From Verrucomicrobiia bacterium (lineage in GTDB: Bacteria > Verrucomicrobiota > Verrucomicrobiia > Limisphaerales > DASXHY01): a DNA stretch of 64,000 bases. Of this stretch, positions 48,085-63,821 are shown in pieces. Under the pieces are notes generated by a model that ran no database searches, was not told the origin of the DNA, and saw nothing but the letters and a program-made list of their open reading frames with translations. Made by a program: the position numbers and the translations under genes. The stretch lies in NCBI GenBank assembly GCA_035629175.1, contig DASPIL010000098.1, positions 1-64,000 of the forward strand, given 5' to 3'. Position 1 is the stretch's first letter; each line of letters opens with the position of its first letter.

Positions 48085-51000
48085 TCATACCGCCCATCCA
48101 GCGCAGAGTAGCTTGGCCTGCTCCAACACGGTTTGTGTCGCCTTTTCTTGCTTGTCCGGCGGATAACCGTATTTGCGCAGGATACGGCGGACTATGACAC
48201 GGATTTGGGCCTGCGCGGCTTCGCGGAGCGTCCAGTCAATGGTTACGCTCTTGCGGACTTGTGTGACCAACTCCCGCGCGATGTCTTTCAACGTGGGTTC
48301 GCCGAGAACTTTCACCGCGCTGTCGTTGACTTCCAACGCATCGTAAAACGCTACTTCATCATCCGTCAGTCCAAGCTTCTCGCCGCGTTGATGGCCTTCA
48401 CGCATCTTCTTCGCCAGTTCGATCAATTCGGCGATGACTTGTGCGGCTTCGATGGTGCGATTCTGATATTTTCGGATGGTGGCTTCGAGCATCTCAGCAA
48501 ATGAACGGGACTGAACCAGATACTTCGCAGACCGGATTTTCAGCTCGTTGTTCAGCAACTTCTGCAACAACTCGACCGCGAGGTTGCGCTGGGGGAGGTG
48601 TTGGACTTCGGCGAGAAATTCATCCGACAAAATAGAAATATCCGGTTTCTTCAATCCGGCGGCATCGAAGATGTCTATGACCTTGTCGGACGAAATCGCT
48701 CGGGAAACGATCTGCCGGACTGCGGTCTCGTATTCCTCCGCTGACTTCTTCCCATCACCACCGTCGATGGGCTTCGACAACACGGCGCGAACTTCCTGAA
48801 AGAAACCGACTTCATCACGAATCTCCAAAGCCTTCTCGTGCGGAACAGACAAGGCGAACGCCTTGGAGAGTTCCATGACCGCTTGCAAGTATCGCGGCTT
48901 CCCATCCGTCTGTTGCAGCACATGCTCGACGGCTTGCGCGATGAGCGGCATTCGCTTTGCAGGCGAAGCCTCAGCAGCGGACTGAAAGTCGAAACCATGG
49001 AGAATGGCGCAGACCTTCTCGTATTTCTCCAGCATTACGGCCACGGCTTCCTCCTGGTCCAGCTTGATTTCGCCTTTGCCTTTGCTGTTGGTGTAATCAA
49101 CCAGCGCCAGTTTCAGTTCTTCCGCGAGCCCGAGATAATCCACCACCAATCCACCGGGCTTGTCTTTAAAAACGCGATTCACGCGCGCGATGGCTTGCAT
49201 GAGGCCGTGGCCTTTCATCGGCTTGTCCGCATACATCGTGTGCAGACACGGCGCGTCAAAGCCGGTGAGCCACATGTCGCGCACAATGACAATCTTGAAC
49301 GGATGCTTCGCGTTCTTGAAATTCTTCGCCAGTTCCTCGCGGCGCGGTTTGTTCCGGATGTGCTGCTGCCATTCCAATTTGTCCGAAGCCGAGCCGGACA
49401 TGACGATCTTCATCGTGCCTTTGGCGTCGTCATCGTCATGCCATTGTGGGCGGAGCTTTCGAATGGCATCGTAAAGATCCACGCAGATGCGGCGGCTCAT
49501 GCAGACGACCATCGCCTTGCCATCCATGGCGCCGAGGCGCGCCTCCCAATGCTTTACCAAATCTTCGGCCACCAGACCGATGCGCTTTTCCGTGCCGACC
49601 ATCGCCTCCAGTTGCGCCCATTTCCGGCGCAGACTTTCCTTGGTGGATTCCTCGGCGTCTTCGGTCACCTCCGCGAAGTTCGGGTCAATCTTCGGGCGTT
49701 CCTCCGGCTTCAAATCAATCTTCGCCAGCCGCGCCTCGTAATAGATCGGCACGGTCGCGTGATCTTCCTTCGCCTGGAGAATGTCGTAAACGTCAATGTA
49801 ATCGCCAAACACGGCCTGCGTGTTCTTGTCGCCCTTCTCGATGGGCGTGCCGGTGAAGCCGATAAACGAAGCCTTGGGCAGCGCATCCCGCATGTGCTTG
49901 GCGAAGCCATCAATGAAATCGTATTGGCTGCGGTGCGCTTCGTCGGCAATGACCACGATGTTGCGCCGGTCGGATAGCAGCAGATGCTTGCCGCTCTTCT
50001 CATCGGGAAAGAATTTCTGAATGGTGGTGAACACCACGCCGCCGCTCGCCACTTTAAGCAACTCACGCAAATGTTCCCGGCTCTCAGCTTGCACCGGCTT
50101 CTGCCGTAGCAAATCCGCGCAGGCAGAGAACGTGTCGCAAAGTTGATTGTCCAGATCGTTGCGATCCGTGAGGACGACGAGCGTTGGATTCTCCATCGCC
50201 GGGTGCTGAATGATCTTCCCGGCGTAGAACACCATCGAAAGACTTTTGCCGCTGCCTTGCGTGTGCCAGATGACACCGGCGCGCCGGTCGCCTGTAGCGC
50301 AGGCGTCCTCGCCTGCGAGTTTACCGGGCGTCTCGCCCGGTGTTCCTTCGCGCGGCGAGACGCCGCTCGAACTCGCAGCCGGGACGGCCGCGCTACGCTG
50401 AAGACCCGCCGCCCTGACAGTGGACTCCACCGCTTTGTTCACCGCGTGGAATTGATGATAGCCCGCCAACTTCTTCACCACCTTTTGCCCGTCATCTTCG
50501 AACACGATGAAGTTACGGATCAAGTCCAGCAGGCGTGACTTCTCAAACACGCCTTTGAGCAGCGTTTCCAGTTGCAGCGAACCGGGCGGGACAAGCTCCA
50601 TGCCCGTGACGGTGCGCCACGCCATGAAGCGTTCCCAGTCCGACGTGATCGTGCCGAGTCGCGCTTCGTGTCCGTCGGAAATCACCAGAAGCGCGTTCGT
50701 GTTGAACAGCGACGGGATTTGCGCCTTGTAAGTTTGAAACTGGTTGAACGCATGGCGAATCGTGGCCTGCGCGTCCGTGATGTTCTTCAGTTCCAGCATC
50801 GCCAGCGGCAGGCCGTTGATGAACACGACCACGTCCGCGCGCCGGTTGAAGTGTCCTTCCTCCACCGTGAACTGATTGACGGCGAGAAATTCATTGGCCT
50901 CGGGATTCGCGAAATCAATCAGCCACACCTTGTCGTGAACGATCTCGCCTGCCTTGTTCCGAAACTCCACATCCACGCCTTCCACCAGCAGCCGATGAAA

Positions 51001-51267
51001 CGCGCGATTGTTTTCAATCAGCGTGGGATGACTGAACAACCGAACTTTGCGCAATGCTTCCTGCAAACCATCGGCGGGAATTTTCGGATTGAGAGACGGC
51101 AGTTTCCCTTGCAGTCGACCGAGCAGAAGAACGTGCGTGAAGCTCTCACGTTCTGCCGAGGGTTCGCGAGGCGCTAGGTGAGGCCCATAAACGGTGACGT
51201 AGCTCAGCTTTTGTAGCCAATCCAGTGAGGCAAGCTCGACATCGTTTTCAACCAGGTTTGCAGGCAA
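48085..51267 (-). CDS. hsdR: Type I restriction enzyme endonuclease/translocase subunit HsdR
   Basis: A 1,060-residue motor-nuclease subunit. The N-terminal nuclease domain carries the PD-(D/E)XK signature ([11 protein letters not shown] then LAMLELKN, about residues 139-160). The SF2 motor has motif [10 protein letters not shown] (about 330), motif [10 protein letters not shown] and motif [13 protein letters not shown]; the C-terminal helical domain binds the methylase. With HsdM and HsdS it cuts unmodified DNA after translocation. Start: a TTG at 51267, with GGAGG six bases upstream, agrees with where family sequence begins; a frame from 51366 would overlap the previous gene. Residues about 291-325 are encoded by a palindromic mobile-like element inserted just before motif I. 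It is the last gene of the cargo-bearing hsd operon. Confidence 0.93.
50294..50396. repeat. 103-bp palindromic (MITE/REP-like) element inside hsdR
   Basis: The ends GTAGCGC and GCGCTAC are exact inverted repeats, and the inverted similarity continues for about 27 bases (GCGTCC/GGACGG, CTGCGAGTT/AACTCGCAG). Inside, ACCGGGCG/CGCCCGGT forms a hairpin and GGCGTCTCGCC is the reverse complement of GGCGAGACGCC. The reading frame stays open through it, adding about 35 Ala/Ser/Gly/Pro-rich residues to HsdR. No transposase is present, so it would need one supplied elsewhere. Confidence 0.75.
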
Positions 51268-51281
51268 AACATTCCTCCATG

Positions 51282-52049
51282 TTACGCACCGCACTGGTCT
51301 GGAATCCCCTTGGGGATGGGCTGAAACTCCTCGCCACTGCATGGCTGAAAATCTTCCGGCCAGCACGCGTGCATCCGGCAGAGCAAACGCTGTTGGAGCG
51401 GTGCATCCCGGTTCACACGATGAACAAAGATTTTAATAAACTCAGGTTCGCATCCTTGAAAAAGCTTCCAGACATCGTGTGCGAGGTAGCGCGGAACATA
51501 ACCAAGCATCAAGCGGTCGGAATTGACAGTTCGCAATGCCACCGCATTCCGGTCAGCCGGGTTGCAGAGGTCTAGCATTGGATAAAGTGGTTCGTCTTGT
51601 TGCAAGGATAGCACGCGGGCTTTCGCCGAGTCCGGCATGTAGCGCAGCCCATGCAGGAAGAACTTGCTCAAATAGCAACCTTGTTCGTCGGGCGCAGGAC
51701 ACGGAAACAATTCAATCATGTCCGTCCGGCGAATTCCCTCTGTGACTCCGAGAACCGCGATAGGATCAGGCTGGCTTGCGGGGTCAAAACCGCTCCACTG
51801 CAAATAGGCTTCGTATTCCGGGCGTGACTTGGGCAGAAGGCGATTGGCGAATACGGGAAACAAGTCATTGGACTCGTAAATCTCTTCGAGGTTTTCCATG
51901 CCGCTGAACGGAGTGAACCCCGCCGCCGTTCGCGCGCCATTGGTATAGGCAAACCGATATGTTCCGTCCTTGAACTCCAGACGTCCAATCGGACTCCAAC
52001 CGCCCGTGCTTGAATCAGCGGAACGTGAGGCAACAAGTAGTGCGTTCAT
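51282..52049 (-). CDS. HIRAN-domain protein with HipA-N-like start
   Basis: A 255-residue protein. The first about 110 residues resemble the N-terminal subdomain of HipA kinases ([27 protein letters not shown]-like and [19 protein letters not shown] positions). The C-terminal half resembles a HIRAN domain ([45 protein letters not shown]), a fold that binds DNA 3' ends or damaged DNA in Rad5/HLTF-type proteins. The ATG at 52049 follows the kinase stop by two bases, and hsdR begins 14 bases after its stop. It probably works with the adjacent HipA-like kinase; target unknown. Confidence 0.7.
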
Positions 52050-52051
52050 GG

Positions 52052-52969
52052 TCAAAAGCTTTCTACCAATCGGCGCTGGTTGATCATCAACAATTCCAAA
52101 GTGAATTCTCTCGTCACCGGCGACATCCGTTCCGGTGGAACTTCCGCCAGAATCGCGTCCATCGCACTGTGACTGATTCCGCTCAGTCTGCCCAGCCAGA
52201 TTCTTGCCGCCGCACTGTCACGTTCGGTGAATTTACGAAATACGTCCAGCGCAAGCATGGTTTTCTCGTTTTTGGCTGTGGCATAAAAACCCGATCGCGC
52301 TTTCCCGGCAAAATGCTCGACGGTCCGGTTCTTGTCCCGTGTCTCAATGCGCGACTTGCGGTCTTGATCTGTCAGGTTCCGCGCCAACGATGCGCCATGA
52401 TCAAACGTAGGTGACAGCCGCAACATTCCCGCGTTCAAAACCGCGCCCCAGTTCTGATGGTGCCGGTCCTGATTTGCCACCCAGGCGTCCAGCATCATGT
52501 AACCAATGAACACTCCCAGCGCCGTTGTGATTTCCGTCGGTGTGCCGCGCATCCATTCGGGCGACGGCGGATGCAAAGCTGCGACCACGTCAGCTACGGC
52601 GTCCACCGTGTATTCCCGAATACCGTATTTTCTTTCCTCTCCAGCCGGATAAGCCGGATCGCGCTGAACCAAAAGCTGATTACCCAGGATCAACGACAAC
52701 GGACGGGGAGCAAAGCTGGGACAAATCACACCGGGCTGTATCGGTTTCTGTCCATCGAACTCATAGGCCAGATCGTATTCGACGTGCGGAATGCCCAGCC
52801 GTCGGCACAGTTCGCAAACGATTTTCTCTGCCCAATCTTCACCCGTGCCGCGTTCTTCCGCCTTGAAAAGATACCGCTGTCCGCCAGAAGAGAACCAAAA
52901 CTTCCGTTTCGTTCCGAGGTATTCGATATCCTCGGCTTGGCCTTGATCAACTTTACGGATGGGAAACAT
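52052..52969 (-). CDS. HipA-like serine/threonine kinase
   Basis: A 305-residue protein matching the kinase part of HipA/CtkA-type enzymes. A glycine-rich N lobe (KFWFSSGGQRYLFKAEERGT) holds the candidate ATP-anchoring Lys. The catalytic loop is NQDRHHQNWG (about residues 163-173), and the metal-binding Asp is in LSPTFDHGASLARN. HipA toxins phosphorylate targets such as glutamyl-tRNA synthetase and arrest growth; the target here is unknown. The HipA N-terminal subdomain appears to be supplied by the separate HIRAN protein downstream, recalling split HipT/HipS systems. The start overlaps the end of an hsdR-hsdS chimeric remnant by 17 bases. Confidence 0.78.
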   Translation of the reverse strand: MFPIRKVDQGQAEDIEYLGTKRKFWFSSGGQRYLFKAEERGTGEDWAEKIVCELCRRLGIPHVEYDLAYEFDGQKPIQPGVICPSFAPRPLSLILGNQLLVQRDPAYPAGEERKYGIREYTVDAVADVVAALHPPSPEWMRGTPTEITTALGVFIGYMMLDAWVANQDRHHQNWGAVLNAGMLRLSPTFDHGASLARNLTDQDRKSRIETRDKNRTVEHFAGKARSGFYATAKNEKTMLALDVFRKFTERDSAAARIWLGRLSGISHSAMDAILAEVPPERMSPVTREFTLELLMINQRRLVESF

Positions 52970-53306
52970 GCTCAGATGGCATGGGCACGCGCAACTCGCC
53001 CGAGGGCAGTTTGGGCAGCAGCGCGTCCAGCGTGTAGGATTCCAAATTCTTTCCGATGAGCGTGGGATGACTGAACAACCAAACCTTGCGCAACGCCTCC
53101 TGCAAACCTTCGGCAGGAATTTTGGGGTTCAGCGCTGCCAGTTTGAATTGCAGCCGGTCGAACAGGAAAACCTGTTTGTAGTCAGTGCGCTCAGCCGCTG
53201 CTTCGCCCGGCGCGATGGTCAGGCCGGACAAAACCTGGTAGCCCAGTTCACCGAGCCAATCGAGAGAACATTGTTCAACAACCGACTCGGAGATGCCGTT
53301 GTTCAT
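52953..53306 (-). pseudogene. Chimeric remnant: hsdR 5' head joined to hsdS 3' tail
   Basis: A 117-codon frame. Residues 1 to about 88 are an HsdR N terminus ([50 protein letters not shown]) truncated before the nuclease active site. The frame then passes without a stop into the HsdS C-terminal tail (LDALLPKLPSGELRVP) and ends. The two genes it samples lie about 11 kb apart in this operon and in the opposite order, so it must come from a recombination event. It starts at an ATGA overlap with the DUF3037 stop and overlaps the HipA-like kinase start, so it is still embedded in translation of the operon. Confidence 0.85.
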
Positions 53307-53731
53307 GTTAGCGCCGCATTACGGGCGGGTGGTGCGTACCGTTCCACCAGGCGGGTGTAAACTTGTTGCAAAGTTTTCTCCGGATCGTCAGTGAATCCGA
53401 CGAAAGCACTCGACCACTGCAGGCTGCTATCATCTGATGGCAACACCTGTTGCACGATCTCAAGCAACCAGCCTGCAGGAATAGGCGCTGTGGTAGTTTG
53501 CATATTGGCCGCGACTTCTGAAAACCTAGCCTGCAAATGCTCTAACGCGGCGAGATAGTGAATTTCGTCAACCTGATTGAACATTCTCTTTATGCGATCG
53601 CACGAAGACGAAAAGCGCGCCCCGAGGTAACGTTGTTCCGGCGCGTGGAGCACGACGCCGATATTCGCAAACTCACCTGTGACGACGTCGTGGACGTATC
53701 GGAAGGTGATGGTGCTATAAGCTGTTTTCAC
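53303..53731 (-). CDS. DUF3037 domain protein
   Basis: A 142-residue protein. YSTITFRYVHDVVTGEFANI and GVVLHAPEQRYLGARF are the DUF3037 signature. The family's function is unknown, but it commonly sits next to HipA-like kinases, as here, although a 350-base hsd remnant separates them. It starts at GTG 53731, seven bases after the DUF4411 stop, and its stop overlaps the remnant's ATG. Confidence 0.85.
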   Translation of the reverse strand: MKTAYSTITFRYVHDVVTGEFANIGVVLHAPEQRYLGARFSSSCDRIKRMFNQVDEIHYLAALEHLQARFSEVAANMQTTTAPIPAGWLLEIVQQVLPSDDSSLQWSSAFVGFTDDPEKTLQQVYTRLVERYAPPARNAALT

Positions 53732-53738
53732 GGCGAGT

Positions 53739-54200
53739 TCAAAAAGTCAGTTTCAATTCCCGGATCATTTGGAGAAAGTTGATGCACCGAATCGCCTTCA
53801 CCTGACAGACGTCAGGAACGCGCGGTTTTTCGAGATTGCCGCTGATAATTTCGCCGGGCACCACGACCGCGTTTCGTTCTATCGCGGTTGCGATTACGAA
53901 CGGATCAGCTTTGGAACGGCCGCGAAGCGTGTCTACAAGACGCGGGTATTCGCTCAACAATGCGACCGCTCGAAGTTGTATCGGCTCATCCAGCGCAACC
54001 AACATCTGCTTTCGAGCCTTGATCCAATCCTGGAGATCGTCCGATTTCCGCTCCAACTCTAAATATACCTCCTCGCTGGAAATGATTTCGCCGGACGCTA
54101 TCAGCGCGTCGATCTTCGCCCACAGCGTGGGAAACACATCCGGTGGATAATGGCGTTGCCAGCCATCCAGCCAGCCGCTGGTATCCACGCAGTAGGGCAT
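53739..54200 (-). CDS. DUF4411 PIN-like protein, probable toxin
   Basis: A 153-residue protein of the DUF4411 family, a PIN-like fold. Candidate acidic residues are in YCVDTSGWLDGW at the N terminus, SSEEVYLELERK in the middle and GRSKADPFVIATA toward the C-terminal third, which fit the spaced Asp/Glu positions of PIN ribonucleases. DUF4411 genes usually follow an XRE-ImmA/IrrE gene, as here (three-base gap), and the pair is regarded as a type II toxin-antitoxin system. Substrate unknown. Confidence 0.82.
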   Translation of the reverse strand: MPYCVDTSGWLDGWQRHYPPDVFPTLWAKIDALIASGEIISSEEVYLELERKSDDLQDWIKARKQMLVALDEPIQLRAVALLSEYPRLVDTLRGRSKADPFVIATAIERNAVVVPGEIISGNLEKPRVPDVCQVKAIRCINFLQMIRELKLTF

Positions 54201-54203
54201 AGC

Positions 54204-55388
54204 TTACGCGATTGCCTCCATGCCTGGTCCGGGAAGAAGCTGCTGTGTAATTTTCTGTAGATGCTTCGATTGAACACCCAGATAATCCACGATATCGGCG
54301 CTGCTCACGGCATTGCGCTGGTACCCTTCCAACACCAATGACGTGAACGGCCTTCCGATTGCCGAAACGACCCTCACCTCGATTGGCGGTCCGCCTTCGC
54401 CTTGCTGTGGTGAATACCACGATTGCTTCTGCCAACCGCGCCGCTTTTGGCGATAGACCGATGGGGCAACACGATGCAACGCCACCAAGCGCCGCAGGAT
54501 TGCTTCCGGGCTGGCTTTGATCCGGTTCGCAAAACGTTTCAGCGCCGACTCATCGCCCATCATGGCGGCAGGATTATTGGCCGCTTCCGCTAGGAATTCC
54601 TTTTTGGGCATGAGGACCGCGGCGGCAAATCGGTTTCCGACCCGCTCCAAAATTTGATCTTCCGGAAGTTTCTGCCCTTCCAGTTTGCTGGTTCGATGCC
54701 CGCCGTTGTTCAGCAGGATGTGAATGAACTCGTGCAGCAGCGTGAAAATGCGCCCGTGCGGTGCATCAGCATTGTTCAGGACGATGACGGGCAGCGGCCC
54801 ATCGGGCATGCTGATGCCGCGCATTTCGTCCACGCTGATCATTCCGGTTTGGAACACAAGCACGCCCTGCCGTTCGATTGCGCTTCGCCACGCATCCAAC
54901 GCAGCATAGGGCCCATTCCAGGATAATTGTTTGGCCCAGGAAATCCCCAACAACTCACGAACACGTTGCGCCACCGCTTCCTCGTCTTCGTCGGGATGAA
55001 CCACCGCGGTCGTGTGCGGGATGTCTTCCTGCAACCGTTCGTATAATTCGCGCGCAATCTCGCGGCGAAACAAAGCCGTGCGCAAGGCCAAACGCAATTC
55101 TGGCGTCTCTTTCTGCGGCAATAGGCCTGGAAGCCGGCGGAATTCCCGCTGCGCATCGAAATCTTTGGGCGGCTCGGACAGAAAGAAAACCGCCAAGGGC
55201 CTTTTGTAGATTTCTCCCAGCTTCCGAAGCTGGGGAATCGAAGGCTGGCTTTCACCCGCTTCCCACGCGCGTAGAGTTTCCACCCCGATGTCAGCCTTGG
55301 TCGCCGCGTCTTCGATGGCAAAACCGGCGCGTTCCCTCGCCCAAACGAGGAGGGCCGGCTTGACCAATGCTGGAATGCTTCGCGGCAC
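54204..55388 (-). CDS. XRE regulator with ImmA/IrrE metallopeptidase domain, probable antitoxin
   Basis: A 394-residue protein. The N terminus holds an XRE-type helix-turn-helix (TKADIGVETLRAWEAGESQP, about residues 30-50). It is followed by an ImmA/IrrE zinc-peptidase domain with LLHEFIHIL (HExxH around residue 217) and the downstream NRFAAAVLMPKKEF stretch. It begins at GTG 55388 after a 90-base gap, the largest in the operon, which contains an inverted repeat. That gap and the DNA-binding domain suggest an autoregulated promoter for this gene and DUF4411. Peptidase activity is inferred from the motif only. Confidence 0.88.
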   Translation of the reverse strand: MPRSIPALVKPALLVWARERAGFAIEDAATKADIGVETLRAWEAGESQPSIPQLRKLGEIYKRPLAVFFLSEPPKDFDAQREFRRLPGLLPQKETPELRLALRTALFRREIARELYERLQEDIPHTTAVVHPDEDEEAVAQRVRELLGISWAKQLSWNGPYAALDAWRSAIERQGVLVFQTGMISVDEMRGISMPDGPLPVIVLNNADAPHGRIFTLLHEFIHILLNNGGHRTSKLEGQKLPEDQILERVGNRFAAAVLMPKKEFLAEAANNPAAMMGDESALKRFANRIKASPEAILRRLVALHRVAPSVYRQKRRGWQKQSWYSPQQGEGGPPIEVRVVSAIGRPFTSLVLEGYQRNAVSSADIVDYLGVQSKHLQKITQQLLPGPGMEAIA

Positions 55389-55422
55389 GAATGAATTTAA
55401 GCTGTTATCCCCGGTTTAGGCA

Positions 55423-55466
55423 ATTCCGTTGGAAGGCACGCGGTGCCCCAGGTGTTCTAACGGAAT
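55423..55466. promoter_or_regulatory. Nested inverted repeat, candidate operator upstream of the XRE-ImmA gene
   Basis: ATTCCGTT (55423-55430) and AACGGAAT (55459-55466) are perfect inverted repeats enclosing a second dyad GGCAC/GTGCC (55435-55447). It lies about 35 bases upstream of the GTG start, where autoregulating XRE antitoxins normally bind. A terminator role for the upstream DUF4268 gene is possible but there is no T run. Confidence 0.5.
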
Positions 55467-55478
55467 CATTTTTCTGGA

Positions 55479-56450
55479 TCAATCATTCCTAAGATTCTTA
55501 ACAATTGGAGCAAATACTCGTTGCATCGTCTCAAGTTTCTGCCGCAGCCAATCGAACTGTTCCGACCATAATCTTTCGTTAAGAAAGTCTGCATCCTGAC
55601 GCACTGCCAGCCGACATGCTTTTTTTCCTTCGATGTTGCGCCAGCGCAAGGCAAACCCAAGGTCGCTCTCAATCTGGGATTTGCGTTTTTCAAGTGCTGC
55701 GAAATCCTGTTTTGCCGTGTTTCCTTCCAAATATAGCTCAGCTCGAATTTCGGGACCTAGTCCGCCCGGCTCAGAGTTTACCGTCGATATGATGGATGTG
55801 AGATGCAATCCCGCACGACCCAGCGCGTGATTCATCCAGTGCTGTGGAAATGGTTTCTGGCACTTCACTGAACTCTGTCTCTTCTCCATGTAATCCTTGA
55901 ATGCGGTCCAGAACCTTAATTGGAACTGATTATGTGCAGACATCTCGCCTTGCGCCGCCTGCTGCACCGACCGCGTCCAGTCGTTGGGTTTGCTGACAAT
56001 GTTAAACTTCGGAGCGATCGGCGAATCTCCGATTCGCCACAATTCTACTTCCAAGCCGAAGAAGGTGATCTTCTCATCAGTGCGTTCGTTTAACCAATCC
56101 AATGCCGCCCGATGTTCCTCCGTGAACCGTTCTGCCACCCAAACAATAGTCACGGCTTCCAGCCCCGCGGCGTATGTGAGCAACTGGCCTAAATGACAGT
56201 GATCGGTGCGCTCCAGTTGATTCTCGATCAATACCCAGGCATCGGATGCCGTGTCTTTGCAGAGAATGTCGGCGCGAAATGGCCCCACTTCCTTTTCCTG
56301 TGCCTCACATTCCAGTTCGATGCCGATGGTTTCGCCGAGCAGCTTAAGGTTCTCAGGCTCGGCCAGCCAGGGTGTGAATTGGCCGGATTCCGAAAGCCAC
56401 ACCTCCCGGAGATCAATCTTCTGTAAACGACCTAGACTTTTAGTGTTCAT
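55479..56450 (-). CDS. DUF4268 protein with PD-(D/E)XK-like domain
   Basis: A 323-residue protein. The N-terminal half has a nuclease-like pattern: Glu in IGIELECEAQEKEV, Asp in GPFRADILCKD, and a Glu-x-Gln in WVLIENQLERTDHCHLGQLL, followed by LTYAAGLEAVTIVWVAERF. The C-terminal half is DUF4268 (FWTAFKDYMEKR, LGFALRWRNIEGKKACRLAV). Related proteins are frequent in defence islands and may cleave or bind phage DNA; activity is untested. Its ATG overlaps the upstream stop (ATGA), so it pairs with the unknown 56447 gene. Confidence 0.78.
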   Translation of the reverse strand: MNTKSLGRLQKIDLREVWLSESGQFTPWLAEPENLKLLGETIGIELECEAQEKEVGPFRADILCKDTASDAWVLIENQLERTDHCHLGQLLTYAAGLEAVTIVWVAERFTEEHRAALDWLNERTDEKITFFGLEVELWRIGDSPIAPKFNIVSKPNDWTRSVQQAAQGEMSAHNQFQLRFWTAFKDYMEKRQSSVKCQKPFPQHWMNHALGRAGLHLTSIISTVNSEPGGLGPEIRAELYLEGNTAKQDFAALEKRKSQIESDLGFALRWRNIEGKKACRLAVRQDADFLNERLWSEQFDWLRQKLETMQRVFAPIVKNLRND

Positions 56451-57379
56451 GAATCTGGCTCTTCGGTTTCAGACGCCCGTGCCACGTACGCGACCACAGC
56501 AGTCGTAATGGCCAGAATCATCTGCGATTCGAGCTGGTCGTAATGCGGGTTGGGAGAGTGGTGCGGCGGATTCGAAGCGTCCTTTATTGCGCCAAGGGTG
56601 CTGTTCAGCCAATCGTATGTCGCCTTTCCCATCTTCTTCTCCCAACTTTTCTTCAGGACAGGAATTTTACGGGATTCGGTGTGACTTGGATCAACAGAGA
56701 CAAGATCAAAAAACTTTTCCAAGGCCATCCGGCATTTCCCGACGGCATCGTCATAATAGCCGAGACGATGCTTCTCCTCTGCCTGCTTTAATGATTGAAA
56801 GGAGTGATCGAGAGCCTGGCAGGATTCCAACGGAACCGCCGGAAACTCTACGATATGAATTTTGCCGTATCCGATCCCAGGCAGGACATGCTCGATCCAA
56901 TCTGATTGTGAGATTTCAATTCCTTCCTGCAGTCTGGCCAGAAAAAGATTTTCGAGTTCCCATGCCGCCTCACTTGCCACAATTACAGGACGATGTTCGT
57001 CGATATGTAGGTCAATCCAGAGGTCCAGTTTTACCGAGCCTCCTTCTCGATACTGCTCCAAAGCGTAAATTTGCTGAACGTCTAAACCGAAATCCAACGT
57101 CAGATGGGTCGAAACTCTACCATCTTCAGGCTTCATCAAACGGTTAACATATTCAGTCCTTGCCTCGGCGATTCTCGTTGTTTTTGGAAATCGAAGCTGC
57201 GCTTCAGCCGTTCGGAAGACATAACGCTTGTGTGAATCGCGTTGAAACGAAATTGACAGTGGAACCTGCCAGTAAAGGGACGCGCAGCCTGGATTGCCAG
57301 ATCCCCACAGATTGGAGGTACTCTTATCCAGTTCGATCAACATTCCAGTTGGACCGCCGCGGAATTGTGGATGGCTCAT
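56447..57379 (-). CDS. Unknown cargo protein paired with DUF4268
   Basis: A 310-residue protein I do not recognise. The first two thirds look beta-rich (FGLDVQQIYALEQYREGG, KLDLWIDLHIDEHRPVIVA). The last third is helical and contains HRLGYYDDAVGKCRMALEKF, reminiscent of HEPN-like or abortive-infection helical domains, though no clear RNase motif is seen. The ATG at 57379 lies one base after the stop of an hsdR remnant; an earlier in-frame start at 57403 falls inside that remnant. It is coupled to the DUF4268 gene by ATGA. Confidence 0.65.
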   Translation of the reverse strand: MSHPQFRGGPTGMLIELDKSTSNLWGSGNPGCASLYWQVPLSISFQRDSHKRYVFRTAEAQLRFPKTTRIAEARTEYVNRLMKPEDGRVSTHLTLDFGLDVQQIYALEQYREGGSVKLDLWIDLHIDEHRPVIVASEAAWELENLFLARLQEGIEISQSDWIEHVLPGIGYGKIHIVEFPAVPLESCQALDHSFQSLKQAEEKHRLGYYDDAVGKCRMALEKFFDLVSVDPSHTESRKIPVLKKSWEKKMGKATYDWLNSTLGAIKDASNPPHHSPNPHYDQLESQMILAITTAVVAYVARASETEEPDS

Positions 57380-57380
57380 G

Positions 57381-57608
57381 TTATTGTTCGAATCCGAGCA
57401 CAACCGGAAACGCCGCCAGCGGGATTTTCGGGTTCAAAGCCGCCAGCTTGGATTGCAGCCGTTCGAAAAGAAAAACCTGCTTGTAGTCCGTGCGCTCCGC
57501 CGCTGCTTCGCCCGGCGCGATGGTCAGGCCGGACAAAACCTCATAGCCCAGTCCAGTGAGCCAGTCGCGGGTGGCTTGTTCGACGATGGTTTCCGTCAGT
57601 TTAGTCAT
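57381..57608 (-). pseudogene. hsdR 5' head remnant
   Basis: A 75-codon frame. Residues 1 to about 62 match an HsdR N terminus (YEVLSGLTIAPGEAAAERTD, YKQVFLFERLQSKLAALNPK). This is close to the remnant at 52953 and more distant from the intact HsdR. After NPKIP the match breaks into an unrelated 12-residue tail and a TAA. The ATG directly follows the TAA of the AAA-DUF4435 gene, and its own stop is one base before the next ATG, so it is precisely fitted between two genes. Confidence 0.85.
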
Positions 57609-59213
57609 TTAGATGGCGGGCTTTGGAACTACTGTTTGCAAAGCTTCAATGAATTCTTGTGCGTTCTCGCTCCGAAGCCATCGCATAATCTGGTCAGAAT
57701 ATTTGAGCGCGAAGACTGCGCCTGCTTCTGAGGCCAAACCTTTAATTTTGTAATAGCGGAGAGCCGCGCTGAAATCATTGTCTGTACTCACACGGCCAAT
57801 CTCGGTTTCCCACCTTTTGTAAATCTCGGTTGGATTGATGGCGGCGCATGCGCTCGTAAAAGCAGTTGCTAACGCTTCTGCCCCATCCTCACCTTTACCA
57901 ATGCGCCGGAGCTTCATCTCCATTTCTTGTCGGGTTAAGTTTGAAATGACTTGGACACTGTTTCTTTTCAGTGATTCCAGCACACGGGATTTAACCTGTG
58001 CCGCTGTCTCGTCTGGGTTTCGACCAAGCTTAGTCGCGGCAAGCCTTAGAACAGGCTCAACGAGAAACAGGTTTTCGACGAGCGCGACAGGAAGCACCGC
58101 TACACCGAGCTTATTAAGCATCTGGATGTCAGCCTCCGAACGACCATCATTATCAACTAGGCCGCCGCAAGTATTGTGATGCAGTTCCGCCATTGCAGCA
58201 AAACTCCGCGTTGAGTGTATGACAACCTCGCACGAGCCGCATGGCACAACTGTGTATTGAGGAAAGACTTTGCCGTAGATGAAGTAGTCCAGGTTGTCAC
58301 GCTCTCCTTCAACGAAAAGAACTGGGCGGCGGCTTCCCATTACTTCCAGAAGCATCGATTCGGGAAACGCGTCTGTTTCAGGGACTTCTTCCCAATCCCA
58401 TTTGTCATTTGTGTATTCACGCAGCCAAACTTTTGTTGCGTCTTTTCGTGACGCGGCGAAGCCAAGATCGTGAGTGATGTAAACAAATGTGCAATCCGCT
58501 CTGGCAACCTCGACAGCGTCCCAAAGCCGCGATTGAATCGCTCGGTGAAGGTGCAACTCCGGCTCATCTACAATAAAGACACCATTCTTCGGCGCGCTTA
58601 AAGCCTCGCCAATTAAATGAAAAATTCCCCGTTCCCCGTCGCTCATTTCCTTGGCGTGATAGGATTTGGAGTCTTTCCGGTTTCGTGCTTCGATTCGGGT
58701 GCCAGTAATAATCAACTCGCGCGAAGGCAGGATTGTCTCCCAGATCTTTTTTACCACATCCAACCTCGTCACTGGAGGAGCAACATATTGGTTTTCCGCC
58801 TGCATCGTGACGCGATATTTGTCGCTGACCGTAAAACTTTCGGAAACCATGAGCGTAACCAAAGGTTCGAAGTCGGCGAGTAAAGCCGTCGCTGGTTTGT
58901 TTTGCCATCTGGTGTGGAGGCGATGATGCGCGAAGTCCGTAATGGAGTGATGGCCCGAAAACAACCTGAGTTCTGCTTCCTGATAATCTCTAGGCTGGAC
59001 TCGCTCAGGAAAAACCAGAGATCGATGTGCCCCGACGCGGTGATGCAATTTCGCATCTCTGGAATCGAGCCAAGCTCCAAAACGTGTTTTACCAGACCCA
59101 TTCGCTCCAACAACGACGAGCACACGGTCTTTTAGAGGTAGGATGTGCCCGTTCGGATGCTTGACCGTTGGTGGCATGGGAACATAGCGAATGGAAGGGT
59201 TGTTCATACTCAT
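57609..59213 (-). CDS. AAA ATPase fused to DUF4435/TOPRIM nuclease (PARIS AriA-AriB-like)
   Basis: A 534-residue protein. The N-terminal ABC-type ATPase has Walker A GANGSGKT (about 36-43), a signature-like MSDGERG (about 190), Walker B VFIVDEPELHLH (about 208-219) and an H-loop TFVYITHDLGF. The C-terminal half fits DUF4435, a TOPRIM-like fold: VLFVEGERDNLDYFIYG (catalytic Glu in VEG, about 300), VVPCGSCEVV, and GLVDNDGRSEADIQMLNKLG with Asp residues. PARIS uses an AriA ATPase and an AriB DUF4435 effector that is released when anti-restriction proteins are sensed; some versions are single fused genes. OLD-family nucleases are the alternative. Its ATG overlaps the upstream stop (TAATG). Confidence 0.75.
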   Translation of the reverse strand: MSMNNPSIRYVPMPPTVKHPNGHILPLKDRVLVVVGANGSGKTRFGAWLDSRDAKLHHRVGAHRSLVFPERVQPRDYQEAELRLFSGHHSITDFAHHRLHTRWQNKPATALLADFEPLVTLMVSESFTVSDKYRVTMQAENQYVAPPVTRLDVVKKIWETILPSRELIITGTRIEARNRKDSKSYHAKEMSDGERGIFHLIGEALSAPKNGVFIVDEPELHLHRAIQSRLWDAVEVARADCTFVYITHDLGFAASRKDATKVWLREYTNDKWDWEEVPETDAFPESMLLEVMGSRRPVLFVEGERDNLDYFIYGKVFPQYTVVPCGSCEVVIHSTRSFAAMAELHHNTCGGLVDNDGRSEADIQMLNKLGVAVLPVALVENLFLVEPVLRLAATKLGRNPDETAAQVKSRVLESLKRNSVQVISNLTRQEMEMKLRRIGKGEDGAEALATAFTSACAAINPTEIYKRWETEIGRVSTDNDFSAALRYYKIKGLASEAGAVFALKYSDQIMRWLRSENAQEFIEALQTVVPKPAI

Positions 59214-59653
59214 TATGAAAGGTCTTCGATGATGGTCTTGATCCGGTTTTCCCGGAACAGATTCCAAACTCCTTTGTGTTTCATCTTATGGCCCTTTCCG
59301 TTGCAAACCGGCACGCTGCCAAACATTTCACAGAACTTTACCAACAAGGCGCGCTCCAATCGAAACCACGTCCGCACGTGCTTACGTCCCTTGCAGCTGA
59401 CAATCGCGACGGTAAAACTTTTTACGCCGTGAAGATTGAGAATCTTATTTGCTCGGTATGCGACACTTGAAGCGATTCGTGAGAGCCCCTTCTTGGTCGT
59501 TCCGATATAGGCAATCTTTGAACGTTCGCTTCCATATTTGAGCTTCTTGTTTGCTTTGATCACATAAACCAACCGTTCCTTCCCGAGACTCAAACGCGTC
59601 ACGTGCATTGCATCTTCCGTGGGAAGCGAAACATTGAGGCGGCGTGCAGACAT
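59213..59653 (-). CDS. Putative GIY-YIG-like nuclease-fold protein
   Basis: A 146-residue basic protein. RLVYVIKANKKLKYG with IAYIGTTKKGLSRI fits the spaced strands of a GIY-YIG domain (VYVI then AYIG in place of GIY and YIG), followed by an Arg-rich helix and a Glu in FRLERALLVKF. The GKGHKMKH motif near the C terminus may hold the Asn/His position. The match is by pattern only. It is coupled at both ends: TGATG with the hsdS-tail mini-ORF upstream and TAATG with the AAA-DUF4435 gene downstream. Confidence 0.55.
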   Translation of the reverse strand: MSARRLNVSLPTEDAMHVTRLSLGKERLVYVIKANKKLKYGSERSKIAYIGTTKKGLSRIASSVAYRANKILNLHGVKSFTVAIVSCKGRKHVRTWFRLERALLVKFCEMFGSVPVCNGKGHKMKHKGVWNLFRENRIKTIIEDLS

Positions 59654-59772
59654 CAGTTGAAGGGTTTATTTGTTGGCACGCGCAACTCGCCCGAGAGCGG
59701 CTTGGGCAGCAGCGCGTCGCGCAGTGCAACGAGGGTTGCGGGAAATGTTGCAATCTGATTAAAACTGCTCAT
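59653..59772 (-). pseudogene. hsdS 3' tail remnant forming a 39-codon mini-ORF
   Basis: The frame has a 12-residue unrelated start, then [19 protein letters not shown], the HsdS C-terminal tail, then TNKPFN. About 66 bases align with the end of intact hsdS, with a few mismatches. The ATG overlaps the SLATT stop (ATGA), and its TGA overlaps the next ATG (TGATG), so it acts as a translational bridge whatever its product does. Confidence 0.85.
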
Positions 59773-60371
59773 GGAGTCACGACTGGCGTTCGAAGCCAAC
59801 AGATAACGAGGAGAACAATCACCGCTGCGACAATAACTCCAACACTCAATGTGAAGCTGAGGGGAAGTTTGTCCCGAAAGAACTTAAAATGCTTTTGTTC
59901 GTTAATCCAGTCAATCTGGTGTTCCCAAAAGAATTTGTAGTGAGCGAACCAACCGCTGAAAAGAATCTGATCGCTGATTCCGGTTTTACCGTATTCCTCT
60001 TCGAGTGCCGCCAACTGCCGCTCCAATTCGGGCAAATCTGCATCTTTGGCTGCTTTGACATTGAAGTAGAGCGCCTTCAGTTTGTTAAAAAGTTGAGTCA
60101 GCTTCTGGCCAACCTCCGCATACTCCGCCTTTTTGTGGTCGTATAGCGCAATGCTGATTCCCAAAACACCCAGCACGATGAACGCCGCTGAAAAAACCTT
60201 CGTTGCTAGCCAATCAACGAAAAGCGAAAAAATGCCGATTGCAGTTGAAGCAAAGCCAATGACTGCTGGCACTTTGTCTGTAATGTCGTATGTGGCAAAA
60301 TGTTTCTTCGCACCGAACCCAACATTGTAAGCGGTGTCAGCGATATGCTTCAACAAATCTGGCTTTGTCAT
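59769..60371 (-). CDS. SLATT-domain two-TM effector of a CBASS-like pair
   Basis: A 200-residue membrane protein of the SLATT family (SMODS and SLOG-associating). Family sequence includes DTAYNVGFGAKKHFATYDI, an N-terminal pair of transmembrane helices (about residues 38-58 and 60-77), then LTQLFNKLKALYFNVK, ILFSGWFAHYKFFWEHQIDW, and a third hydrophobic helix near 170-192. SLATT proteins are proposed pore-formers triggered by nucleotide signals, killing infected cells. The ATG overlaps the CD-NTase stop (ATGA), the expected order for an enzyme-effector pair. Base composition is visibly more AT-rich than the hsd genes. Confidence 0.88.
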   Translation of the reverse strand: MTKPDLLKHIADTAYNVGFGAKKHFATYDITDKVPAVIGFASTAIGIFSLFVDWLATKVFSAAFIVLGVLGISIALYDHKKAEYAEVGQKLTQLFNKLKALYFNVKAAKDADLPELERQLAALEEEYGKTGISDQILFSGWFAHYKFFWEHQIDWINEQKHFKFFRDKLPLSFTLSVGVIVAAVIVLLVICWLRTPVVTP

Positions 60372-61675
60372 GTGTTAGTAGTAATTGGGACGTGTATGCG
60401 ATCCTTCGCAACAACGACTCCGTTTTTGATGGCGTAACATTCAACGACATGATCACCCTTAAAGTTTGTCGTTTCGGTTTTTTGTTGATGGCCCTTGTCA
60501 TCAACAATTTCGCCTCGAATGCAGTCTCTTTTTTGTGCCTCTTCGCCTCGATTGAGCACTTTCCATTTAAGCTCATAAGGTGGAGGCACAGTGTTTTGGA
60601 CAACACTGAAATTCAGATCCTTGTTCGCCAGCAATGGAATATGATACGCAATCATTTCTCGAAGCCGACGCTCAAGAAATCCCCTTTGTTTCACATCACA
60701 GTCAAGTTTCAGCGTGTAGCGAATGTCGACGGGAAAAAGGTCTTCAATGAATTCCTCAGTATTTCGCCAGGTGGCGGATGCCATTGCCGTTTTGGCCTCC
60801 TCAACTGCCTCGGCAGCAGCCGGGAACTGCCGCCCATAGACTTTTTTCCACTTTTCATTAACATTTTTCTGTTTCTTGTCCTGCGCTTCAATCGCTGCAA
60901 GGCAGAGGCGATGCGCCTTTCTTGCCTTTCGTTGAAACTTCTTCCTGACCTTTACATGCTGGCCACTGCCCGGCGCTGCGTAACGATCCTGTTCCGGCTG
61001 CTCACCCAAATACTTAAAAAAATCTCGGCTAAGCAAGTCGTAGTAAAGGTAGCTGCGACCGTCGTAATCTTTTGTGCTTTCCAGAAAATTGTAGGCTAGT
61101 GTATCGATTAAAAGGCCGCTCATTCCCAAGCCGTGTTTATTCTTCCATGCTCGCGCCATTTTGCAGAGCCGCTTCAAATTCAAATTCTTGGCGTTATCCA
61201 GCTTGGTAACGGCCTCCATTTCTTCGCGCGGCTTGGTTATTTTCCAACTACCTTCGTCTTTCGTGTCCGGATATTTATAGCTTCCGTCGTCCTGTTCAAA
61301 CACCGGCTGAATTTCGACATGGAAGTCTGCGTATGTAACCGTCACGACCAAGCGGTCCACACGAACATCTGTTGCGGGATACCGGGTGACTACCGCAGCT
61401 TTTACGTCCTGCAAAAGCTTTAGCTGCCGCCCGTCCTTGTAAGTGTTCCACTCTCCTTTCGGCATGATGTAAAGCATGTCCAAGTCAGAGATGCCATCAA
61501 TACCTGTATTCCTTCCGAATGAACCAACTTGAAGGACGTTCGCTGTTTTGGATTCCGTGTCTCGGAACTTTTTATTGAGCGCGGCTGTTAGCTCGCCGTA
61601 GCGAAGACTGATCGTCTCCGTGTTCTGGATTACGAGGTTGCCGAGAAAAACACTAAACATGTCAGCTACGGACAT
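60368..61675 (-). CDS. CD-NTase (SMODS-type) with AGS-C sensor domain
   Basis: A 435-residue nucleotidyltransferase of the cGAS/DncV-like superfamily. The active site is VGSFGRNTGIDGISDLDML (GS at 51-52, metal-binding DLD at 64-66), with a third acidic residue probably in FHVEIQPVF. The C terminus (about 320-430) matches the AGS-C sensor domain seen in CBASS operons: PPPYELKWKVLNRGEEAQKR, then DHVVECYAIKNGVVVAKDRI. It should synthesise a cyclic or linear oligonucleotide signal upon phage infection and activate the SLATT effector downstream. The start at ATG 61675 overlaps an hsdS-tail mini-ORF by 14 bases. No ubiquitin-like (Cap2/Cap3) or HORMA accessory gene is present. Confidence 0.88.
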   Translation of the reverse strand: MSVADMFSVFLGNLVIQNTETISLRYGELTAALNKKFRDTESKTANVLQVGSFGRNTGIDGISDLDMLYIMPKGEWNTYKDGRQLKLLQDVKAAVVTRYPATDVRVDRLVVTVTYADFHVEIQPVFEQDDGSYKYPDTKDEGSWKITKPREEMEAVTKLDNAKNLNLKRLCKMARAWKNKHGLGMSGLLIDTLAYNFLESTKDYDGRSYLYYDLLSRDFFKYLGEQPEQDRYAAPGSGQHVKVRKKFQRKARKAHRLCLAAIEAQDKKQKNVNEKWKKVYGRQFPAAAEAVEEAKTAMASATWRNTEEFIEDLFPVDIRYTLKLDCDVKQRGFLERRLREMIAYHIPLLANKDLNFSVVQNTVPPPYELKWKVLNRGEEAQKRDCIRGEIVDDKGHQQKTETTNFKGDHVVECYAIKNGVVVAKDRIHVPITTNT

Positions 61676-61838
61676 AACCCTCCTTCGTTTCGCGCGCCCG
61701 CAACTCGCCTGAGAGCAGCTTGGGCAGCAGCGCGTCCCGCAGCGTGGCGATGGCCAACGGGAGCAGCCCGTCATCAACGCAACGCGCTCCGCCATTATCG
61801 ACGGCACATTTGTAAACGTAAATGCGGTGCTCCCTCAT
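61662..61838 (-). pseudogene. Chimeric mini-ORF: unknown 30-residue start plus hsdS 3' tail
   Basis: A 58-codon frame with a GGAGG ribosome-binding site seven bases before its ATG. The start MREHRIYVYKCAVDNGGARC is unrelated to HsdS and loosely recalls Nmad2-like nucleotide-modification domains, a weak impression. From residue 31 it becomes [17 protein letters not shown], the HsdS tail, then RETKEGYVRS. It appears to be a gene whose body was replaced by an hsdS end. The ATG overlaps the stop of the tail remnant upstream, and its end overlaps the CD-NTase start. Confidence 0.75.
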
Positions 61839-61959: not shown

Positions 61960-62586
61960 TCACATCATTTCATTTGCTTTGCGCTTGGCTTCTTTGAACT
62001 CCTGCGATTCGTTGATCGCGCGAATACTTTCGTTAAGAGCGGCTTGCCGTGTGCGGTCTTGTTCAATGAATTTGCTGAACGCCTGCTCTGCATCATCCAA
62101 TGCTTGCTCATTCAGGGTTTTCACTTTCCTGAACTGACGATAATCCACTGCGCAGATCAATAGATGAGCAACAATTGCTGCGGTGGAGATTGCTCCACAG
62201 TGGCAGACTTCGACCCACGGAATCACATTGCCGGCTGTTCCTTCCGCGTTATCGGGATAGGGAACAAGTTTTCCCCGCAGGCTCTTGCGTTCGAATCCCA
62301 ACAAAATCGTGATCGGACTAGAGTCGCCAAGGAACTGTTGCCACTTGTGAGCCTCCCCCAAGGCGCGTTCTTCTGATTGAGATGTGAAATCGAATAGGGA
62401 AATGCCCCCGAGTTGCTGACAAGCGTATCGGCCGCCCCAACGATTGAGCCATCCATCATTCGGTTTGACGAAGCTTTCACTTTGAATCTTGCGCCAATGT
62501 TCCGGGCTTGTGCGATGCCAGAGCAATCCGTTCCGCAACTCGTCCCAGAGCGGGTGACCAACATGCATCTCATTGCCCTCGTTCAT
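61960..62586 (-). CDS. Unknown cargo protein, possibly ADP-ribosyltransferase-like
   Basis: A 208-residue protein directly after hsdS (ATGA overlap). Pattern features are LLWHRTSPEHWRKIQSESF, like the H/R-T-S strand of ADP-ribosyltransferases that binds NAD; QLGGISLFDFTSQSEE; and NVIPWVEVCHCGAIS, with a Glu in the place of the catalytic Glu. A charged helical tail follows (about residues 150-208). I do not recognise a named family, and the ART reading is only an inference from these spaced motifs. No antitoxin-like macrodomain gene is adjacent. Confidence 0.65.
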   Translation of the reverse strand: MNEGNEMHVGHPLWDELRNGLLWHRTSPEHWRKIQSESFVKPNDGWLNRWGGRYACQQLGGISLFDFTSQSEERALGEAHKWQQFLGDSSPITILLGFERKSLRGKLVPYPDNAEGTAGNVIPWVEVCHCGAISTAAIVAHLLICAVDYRQFRKVKTLNEQALDDAEQAFSKFIEQDRTRQAALNESIRAINESQEFKEAKRKANEMM

Positions 62587-63821
62587 GCGGTAGTCTCAAC
62601 AAGTTCAGCAGGCACGCGCAACTCGCCCGAGAGCAGCTTGGGCAGCAGCGCGTCCCGCAACGCGGCGAGGGTGCGGGATTCTTCTTTGTTCGCCTTGATG
62701 CGCTCATCCAGTGGCGTCACTTGGCTGACAAATCTTCTTTGGAACTCAATCGGCGGCAGGGTGATTTTGAACCGTTTGATGGAATCGAACGTGATTTGCG
62801 GGAATGTTCCCGAGCGAGACTCAGCTTCAATTTGAAATTCCTTCAACGCCTCCGCCGAAGTCAAAAGCTGATACAGAATTCTCGGCTCAATCGTTTCAAA
62901 AGCGCGAACCACCATGAACTTCGTGGATACGACGTAATCAACCGGATCAAAATCCACATACGCGTATCGGCGATTGCCGGGGCGAATCTCACTAAACAAA
63001 ATATCGTTCCTGCGGATGGCTTTCTTCGCCTGTCCCGGCAGACCGATCTTCGAACTGCGGTTAGAGTGCAAAAAGTCACCGCACAGCACGTCGCCGGTAT
63101 TCACAAAAACAACGTCTGACACTTCCGAGAAATCGAATGTATTTGAAGCATTCTCTGCAACTTCTCCGAGAGTTGTTTCGCGCCAGCCTTTGGGGAGGGC
63201 GGATTGAGTGGCGTCCCCGCCTTCGCCAAGGCTACGGCCGGCAGGCACGAACCAGGATTTGAACAGGGTCTGGGCCAGCGCCTCCAGCGTCTCGTTCATC
63301 CGCCGGTTCAACTCAATCTTTGCGGACAGCGTGAAATACAAATCGCCGATGAACTCCTGCACCTTGCGCTCGGGGATTTGGAGCAACAGTTTGTCGAAAT
63401 CACCTTTCTTAAAGTGAGGGATGAGCGTGCCAACGTGCATTTGTTCAATCTGTGATTGAACAGCGGGCGAGCGCAGCACAGCGAAAAGGAATTTGGGATA
63501 AACTTTCTTCTCGTCCGCTCGAATTGCGACCATGTCTTGAGCAATGCAGAAATCTACAGGGTCGGGAACGAGGCAAACCCTTCCAGGCGTCGCCTTGTTT
63601 ACAAAAAGTATGTCGCCCGGTCGCGGATGCCCGCGAAACCATGTGTCGTAGGTTTCCTGCGACACATATCGTGCCTTCTCGTAAGTCGGGTAGAGCAATT
63701 CGTTCCGAATACAATTTGTCGCAATGAGCGGAATTCCTTTTTCTGCGGTGGGGCAAGTCTTTCCTCGGTTGTCCACCACATCGCTGAGGAGTTCAGAGAA
63801 TGGAAGCTCGTCAACTTTCAT
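62583..63821 (-). CDS. hsdS: Type I restriction specificity subunit HsdS
   Basis: A 412-residue protein with the standard two target-recognition domains. TRD1 covers about residues 5-150. A central conserved helix follows ([31 protein letters not shown]). TRD2 covers about 205-360. The distal conserved helix ends in [19 protein letters not shown]. It determines the DNA sequence methylated and cut. Residues about 192-204, right after the central helix, are encoded by a palindromic interspersed element. The start overlaps the hsdM stop by 11 bases; the stop overlaps the next ATG. Its last 60-70 bases recur four more times in the operon. Confidence 0.94.
63208..63247. repeat. REP-like palindromic element in frame inside hsdS
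   Basis: The plus strand reads GCCTTCGCCAAGGCTACGGC followed by CGGCA. It is a short GC-rich imperfect palindrome whose minus-strand translation contains [10 protein letters not shown] recall this peptide/DNA motif as a widely dispersed short repeat in verrucomicrobial and related genomes. The usual HsdS linker at this point lacks it, so it appears inserted without breaking the frame. Confidence 0.55.

Follow-up and report, generated by a model that had tools for sequence, protein, structure and literature searches.

A chimeric hsdR–hsdS reading frame as the probable scar of a defence module insertion in a type I restriction operon

The hsd operon and the contents of its gap

The DNA analysed, termed the window here, is a stretch of 64,000 nucleotides (contig DASPIL010000098.1, positions 1 to 64,000) from a Verrucomicrobiia bacterium of the order Limisphaerales (assembly GCA_035629175.1). 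It carries genes of a type I restriction–modification (RM) operon, and the operon features described below are all on the minus strand. The resident hsdS gene (62583–63821; family match) encodes 412 aa, and the resident hsdR gene is at 48085–51255, with a frame that is open from 51366 and an uncertain start codon. The HsdS specificity domains and the HSDR_N, SWI2/SNF2 helicase and C-terminal domains of HsdR are present. The hsdM gene is not intact in the assembly and is frameshifted at the NPPF catalytic motif. The frameshift is at about 64520–64560 of contig C98 (L042:9521–9560), just past the window, and is either a real mutation or an assembly error.

The resident hsdS and hsdR are about 11 kb apart. 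The gap contains several modules that are known or candidate defence systems (CBASS, AriAB-like, PDC-S11, IrrE/PIN/DUF3037 and PDC-M03AB), and between these there are fragments of hsdS tails and hsdR heads. Adjoining hsdS is an uncharacterised open reading frame (61960–62586), followed by a short remnant with hsdS-tail homology (61898–61869) and by a 58-codon scar ORF (61662–61838) made up of another fragment and, in frame with it, an hsdS tail (61753–61699). The CBASS module consists of a SMODS CD-NTase gene (60368–61675, likely start 61675) and a gene for a SLATT_6 2TM effector (59769–60371), both recognized by family match. Next are a 39-codon scar ORF (59653–59772) with an hsdS tail at its end (59743–59675), an uncharacterised ORF (59213–59653) and the AriAB-like (PARIS-type) fused ATPase-TOPRIM gene that it precedes (57609–59267; E=4.7e-140). 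An older truncated hsdR head (57608–57420), recognized by homology, lies inside a 75-aa ORF (57381–57608) and is followed by an uncharacterised gene that has no family match (56447–57403) and a DUF4268 gene (PDC-S11; 55479–56450; family match). A very short hsdS-end remnant at about 55442–55417 reads RVPSNGIA-stop and matches the hsdS end of the related genome G448, RVPANGIA-stop. It is followed by genes for an HTH-IrrE peptidase (RmrA-like; 54204–55388), a PIN/DUF4411 protein (53739–54200) and, as the last gene of this module, a DUF3037 protein (PDC-M66B-like; 53303–53731), each with a family match. The chimeric ORF that is the subject of this work (52953–53306) comes next. Between it and hsdR are the two genes of the PDC-M03AB module, PDC-M03A (HipA_C-like; 52052–52969; PADLOC E=8.5e-104) and PDC-M03B (HIRAN; 51282–52055; E=5e-84).

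The fusion at 61662–61838, a 30-codon fragment (MREHRIYVYKCAVDNGG...) in frame with an hsdS tail, represents a second kind of scar chimera. A similar fusion is found in genome G394 (L093:8109–8180), where an HTH/IrrE-like N terminus is joined to an hsdS tail.

The chimeric reading frame

The ORF at 52953–53306 has 117 codons and joins an HsdR N terminus (residues 1–87) in frame to an HsdS C terminus, as the earlier note on this DNA had read it. Residues 5–90 match Pfam HSDR_N with E=3e-5 and 24.4 bits, just under the curated cut-off of 25.1 bits. Residues 94–108 match the C terminus of the resident HsdS, and the DNA of the tail is 94% identical to the resident hsdS over 48 nt (E=2e-15, within the window). 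With up to three mismatches allowed, the hsdS-tail pattern CTGCTGCCCAAGCTGCTCTCGGGCGAGTTGCG occurs four times in the window against 0.00 occurrences expected.

Homology of the chimera to intact hsdR extends to 53046, which is hsdR codon 87, and hsdS-tail homology is found from 53042 (ES-TL, past a four-residue gap) or, ungapped, from 53031. Therefore the joint is at about 53042–53046, and the head occupies 53046–53306 and the tail 52984–53042. This is slightly upstream of the range of 53030–53040 that had been predicted for the crossover. The microhomology between hsdR and hsdS that was to be looked for there did not materialize, as none longer than about 3 nt is visible at the joint. An ATGA overlap links the start codon of the chimera with the stop codon of the DUF3037 gene upstream, and at the other end the chimera runs 17 nt into the downstream gene.

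Between scar codons 58–87 and the resident hsdR, 11 of the 13 differences are at third positions. This bias counts against the displacement reading set out below, as it exceeds what is expected for a scar that drifts freely after a simple duplication; thus the scar may be under constraint, or both copies may come from diverged alleles.

Origins of the head and the tail

The body of the resident hsdR is mostly 80–97% identical to the hsdRs of five related genomes (G448, G601, G501, G622 and G623), yet its residues 1–60 are only 43–60% identical to the same five in 30-residue windows. Residues 1–60 of the chimera are 67–78% identical to the heads of these hsdRs. Thus the chimera has the native type of head, and it is the front of the resident hsdR that is foreign. 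When 320 genomes of the order were searched with PDC-M03B, the closest matches were in G477 (81% identity) and G471 (80%). In both of these PDC-M03B is directly upstream of hsdR, and both hsdRs start with the same 15 protein letters as the resident hsdR. When resident codons 1–48 were compared with all HsdR-head copies in the 320 genomes, the top two outside the window were again from G477 (72%) and G471 (69%), and the hsdRs with the closest bodies scored 45–49%.

Informative sites show the same partition. The resident hsdR has 12 donor and no native sites up to codon 46 and 2 donor and 12 native sites at codons 49–83; counted to codon 123, the change from donor to native is significant by Fisher's test (p=1e-8). 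The chimera head has 16 native and no donor sites up to site 46, and 10 native and 2 donor sites beyond. Native controls that were left out of the comparison score as native. The switch in the resident hsdR would lie between codons 46 and 49 (51109–51118), with the donor-type head at 51118–51255.

At the DNA level the window is homologous to G477 from 53027, a position within the chimera's hsdS tail, across PDC-M03AB and into hsdR. An hsdS tail directly precedes PDC-M03A in G477, G471 and G443 and a distant homologue in G514; thus the tail belongs to the PDC-M03AB module as its left arm. The order in G448 is hsdS, the IrrE-PIN-DUF3037 module and an hsdR with a native head. Positions 53613–55442 of the window are 80% identical (1.8 kb) to the stretch between hsdS and hsdR of G448, where the same ATGA overlap is found between DUF3037 and hsdR. 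To judge by these arrangements, G448 shows the presumed pre-insertion state and G477 a donor-like state. The older scar at 57608–57420 is about 94% identical to the chimera head at residues 30–63 and 55–57% at residues 1–30, a pattern that fits a previous event of this kind. The pattern in G643 is similar, with a native-looking scar head and an hsdR whose first 30 residues are divergent.

Given the foreign head, the native scar, the module's own hsdS tail, the pre-insertion and donor-like relatives and the recurrence of such joints at other breakpoints, the chimera is very probably a displacement scar that marks the left edge of the newest hsdR-side insertion, that of a module of hsdS tail, PDC-M03AB and hsdR head. 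The starting operon would have read IrrE-PIN-DUF3037-hsdR with a native head, as in G448, and the incoming DNA hsdS tail-PDC-M03A-PDC-M03B-hsdR of another family, as in G477. Recombination of the incoming hsdR head with the resident gene, between codons 46 and 49, would have put 46 foreign codons in front of a native hsdR body. At its opposite end, which lies within the hsdS tail, the incoming DNA would have joined native hsdR codon 87, where microhomology is slight or absent. This would have pushed the native head upstream and fused it in frame with the hsdS tail of the module, and native codons from about 46 to 87 would now be present in two copies. We infer this direction and order of events, and the anchoring by homology at one end of an illegitimate join at the other would constitute homology-facilitated illegitimate recombination.

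The locus has three features of a displacement array. The homologous end in a conserved gene is seen as the mosaic switch at hsdR codons 46–49, the other end, which lacks extended homology, as the joining of codon 87 to the hsdS tail with at most about 3 nt shared, and the displaced native part beside the module as the native-type chimera head. An integron-like array, with an integrase and recombination sites, is not indicated: no integrase was found among the annotated passengers, and the joints are at differing positions in hsdR and hsdS. It should be pointed out that the genomes compared, one per species, are mostly draft or metagenome assemblies on short contigs and that the head and tail stretches are short. 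Among these genomes, no intermediate of the insertion and no population series was seen.

A tandem duplication of the segment from hsdS tail through passenger to hsdR head, by recombination between the hsdR head and the hsdS tail and with the passengers of one copy later exchanged, has a novel joint with exactly the reversed order seen, and the fact that G454, G667 and G682 have one joint but unrelated modules downstream of it suggests refillable slots. It is nevertheless improbable: to judge by their annotations, the modules that flank the joint are not related to each other, either in the window or in the chimera loci examined, and duplication alone does not give a foreign resident head together with a native scar. 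Somewhat less probable again is the entry into hsdR, by one crossover, of an excised circle with a head::tail junction. Such an integration predicts both the upstream chimera and the downstream foreign head that are observed, but scar codons 49–87 should then be of donor type, and the 10 native and 2 donor sites there disfavour it; in addition, the annotated passengers include no integrase gene. Two tandem hsdMSR operons would also give an hsdR head and then an hsdS tail if a deletion between them removed the hsdR1 body, hsdM2 and the hsdS2 body, so that the assertion in the earlier note that a simple deletion cannot produce this order holds for a single operon only, but such a deletion is highly unlikely because the resident hsdR head is foreign and because of the G448 and G477 comparisons; moreover, no hsd operons in tandem were noted in the loci examined, the deletion would need to recur with different breakpoints and it does not predict the head swap.

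Displacement by an incoming module supports the proposal, made in the same note, that the chimera records two cassettes placed in series, with a further refinement. Modules do follow one after another, but the hsdR head did not arrive as the right-hand end of a cassette; it is the native 5′ end of the resident gene, which was displaced.

Recurrence of scars in the order

The same kind of chimera was sought in relatives by profile searches for heads and tails. At least six further genomes of the order (G454, G667, G682, G698, G496 and G471) have in-frame head::tail chimeras, but with differing breakpoints, one of which is common to three genomes. The head ends at codon 87 in the window, at about codon 64 in G454, G667 and G682 and at codon 11 in G471; this variation in head length led to rejection of a conserved chimeric gene family with its own function. 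In G471 the PDC-M03AB module lies behind a different in-frame joint, MSQRFTESTVD|ALALLPK.... A short in-frame head::tail chimera is probably present in G648. Joints G647, G648:C165 and G648:C432, which are at GAGCGG and include only the last hsdS-tail bases, were left out as uncertain, as was the G510 joint, which has an insert.

Joints common to several genomes are treated as non-independent events. G454, G667 and G682 share one joint and differ in their downstream modules. In transcription-oriented coordinates, loci L076:1556–1627, L081:11813–11905 and L090:2170–2270, from two families of the order, have one head::tail joint and three unrelated downstream modules, which could be either a landing slot with exchanged cargo or repeated joining at one place.

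Between hsdS and hsdR, 22 scars (heads and tails together) were counted in 118 kb, against one in 390 kb outside. The distance from hsdS to hsdR is above 1 kb in all 34 loci that have both genes on one contig (median 2.9 kb). The survey starts from an hsdR-head search and thus describes this hsdR type, not type I systems generally. In a broader sample of the phylum, a second, truncated head was found in only 2 or 3 of the 41 genomes with a match.

Many truncated heads end at hsdR codon 64–68, and a fixed breakpoint resembling an attachment site was considered there and rejected. Several of these heads have the same RhuM-like downstream module, so that common descent explains much of the pattern.

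Related systems and possible roles of the scars

In Vibrio cholerae, effector-immunity modules of the type VI secretion system (T6SS) are displaced sequentially, homology-facilitated illegitimate recombination has been proposed for this, and orphan 3′ regions of Rhs loci are discussed alongside the T6SS arrays (PMC5361080). The hsd gap is similar in that a module with an anchor in conserved sequence takes the place of the native end of a gene, the old part staying behind as a remnant, and repetition of this gives arrays. It differs in that the 5′ end of hsdR is displaced instead of the 3′ end of an effector gene, that the remnant is joined to part of another gene of the operon, hsdS, and that the cargo consists of defence genes and not of immunity genes. 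Homology-facilitated illegitimate recombination has been demonstrated in experiments with competent bacteria and with conjugating E. coli (PMC3240628), whereas here it is deduced from sequence comparison only.

Passengers within type I RM operons are described in the available extracts of other papers. DarTG2 is embedded between hsdS and hsdR in EPEC, where the gap is termed a potential recombination hotspot (PMC12255303), and prrC is embedded in the type IC EcoprrI operon (PMC3874165, PMC12707154). The window resembles both in this respect; unlike it, those extracts describe no multi-module arrays with hsdS or hsdR remnants and no mechanism of insertion. In the open-licence literature, no published account was found of such displacement, of displaced hsdR heads or of head::tail joints in type I RM operons, and nothing on point was found on truncated hsdR, RhuM or remnants in hsd operons. 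Thus displacement is already known for T6SS and Rhs loci and the gap has already been called a hotspot; it is the type I RM case for which no report was found.

Displacement provides a readable mechanism for the growth of a defence island within a restriction operon. Since every insertion on the hsdR side gives hsdR a new front and deposits a scar of its own, the order in which modules arrived and a donor lineage for a module can be traced in the sequence. With more than 1 kb of passenger DNA in 34 of 34 loci, the hsd gap may be productive for finding new defence genes, and scars may mark the edges of modules in such searches.

A further function, compatible with displacement, is tentatively considered but rather unlikely: scar ORFs may be retained as translational-coupling relays, with ribosomes passing from module to module. 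An in-frame upstream ATG is present in 14 of 17 internal hsdS-tail scars and overlaps a stop codon in 12; the corresponding counts are 2 and 2 in the second frame and 5 and 2 in the third. In many cases the stop of a scar lies on or just before the next start, and the third-position bias of the window scar also favours such a role. Against this, the scars are non-independent, with joints in common, and native hsd operons already use overlaps, so that inherited structure is a sufficient alternative to selection. Slightly more doubtful is a broader proposal in which the hsdS tail and hsdR head would form an integrase-free mobile cassette format. The tail would be a portable translational leader, its stop overlapping the passenger start, and the head a landing arm; type I RM operons would then be growing, time-ordered arrays of defence modules with scar ORFs kept as ribosome relays.

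Repeat elements were also observed at these loci. Truncated hsdR heads in L080, L084, L087, L088, L090 and L110 contain an in-frame palindromic insert that codes for TLTRPLPRGEE or a similar sequence, and this palindromic repeat element seems to enter intact hsdRs (L122 and L075) as well as scars. The heads at L102:3642–3840 and L110:8137–8230 are broken by a short inverted-repeat element (AGAGTGAAGAGTGAA...TTCACTCTTCACTCTT). Elsewhere in the window, at 20275–22680, a 702-nt unit is present four times in tandem, and the other three copies are 68–70% identical to the first over 300 nt.
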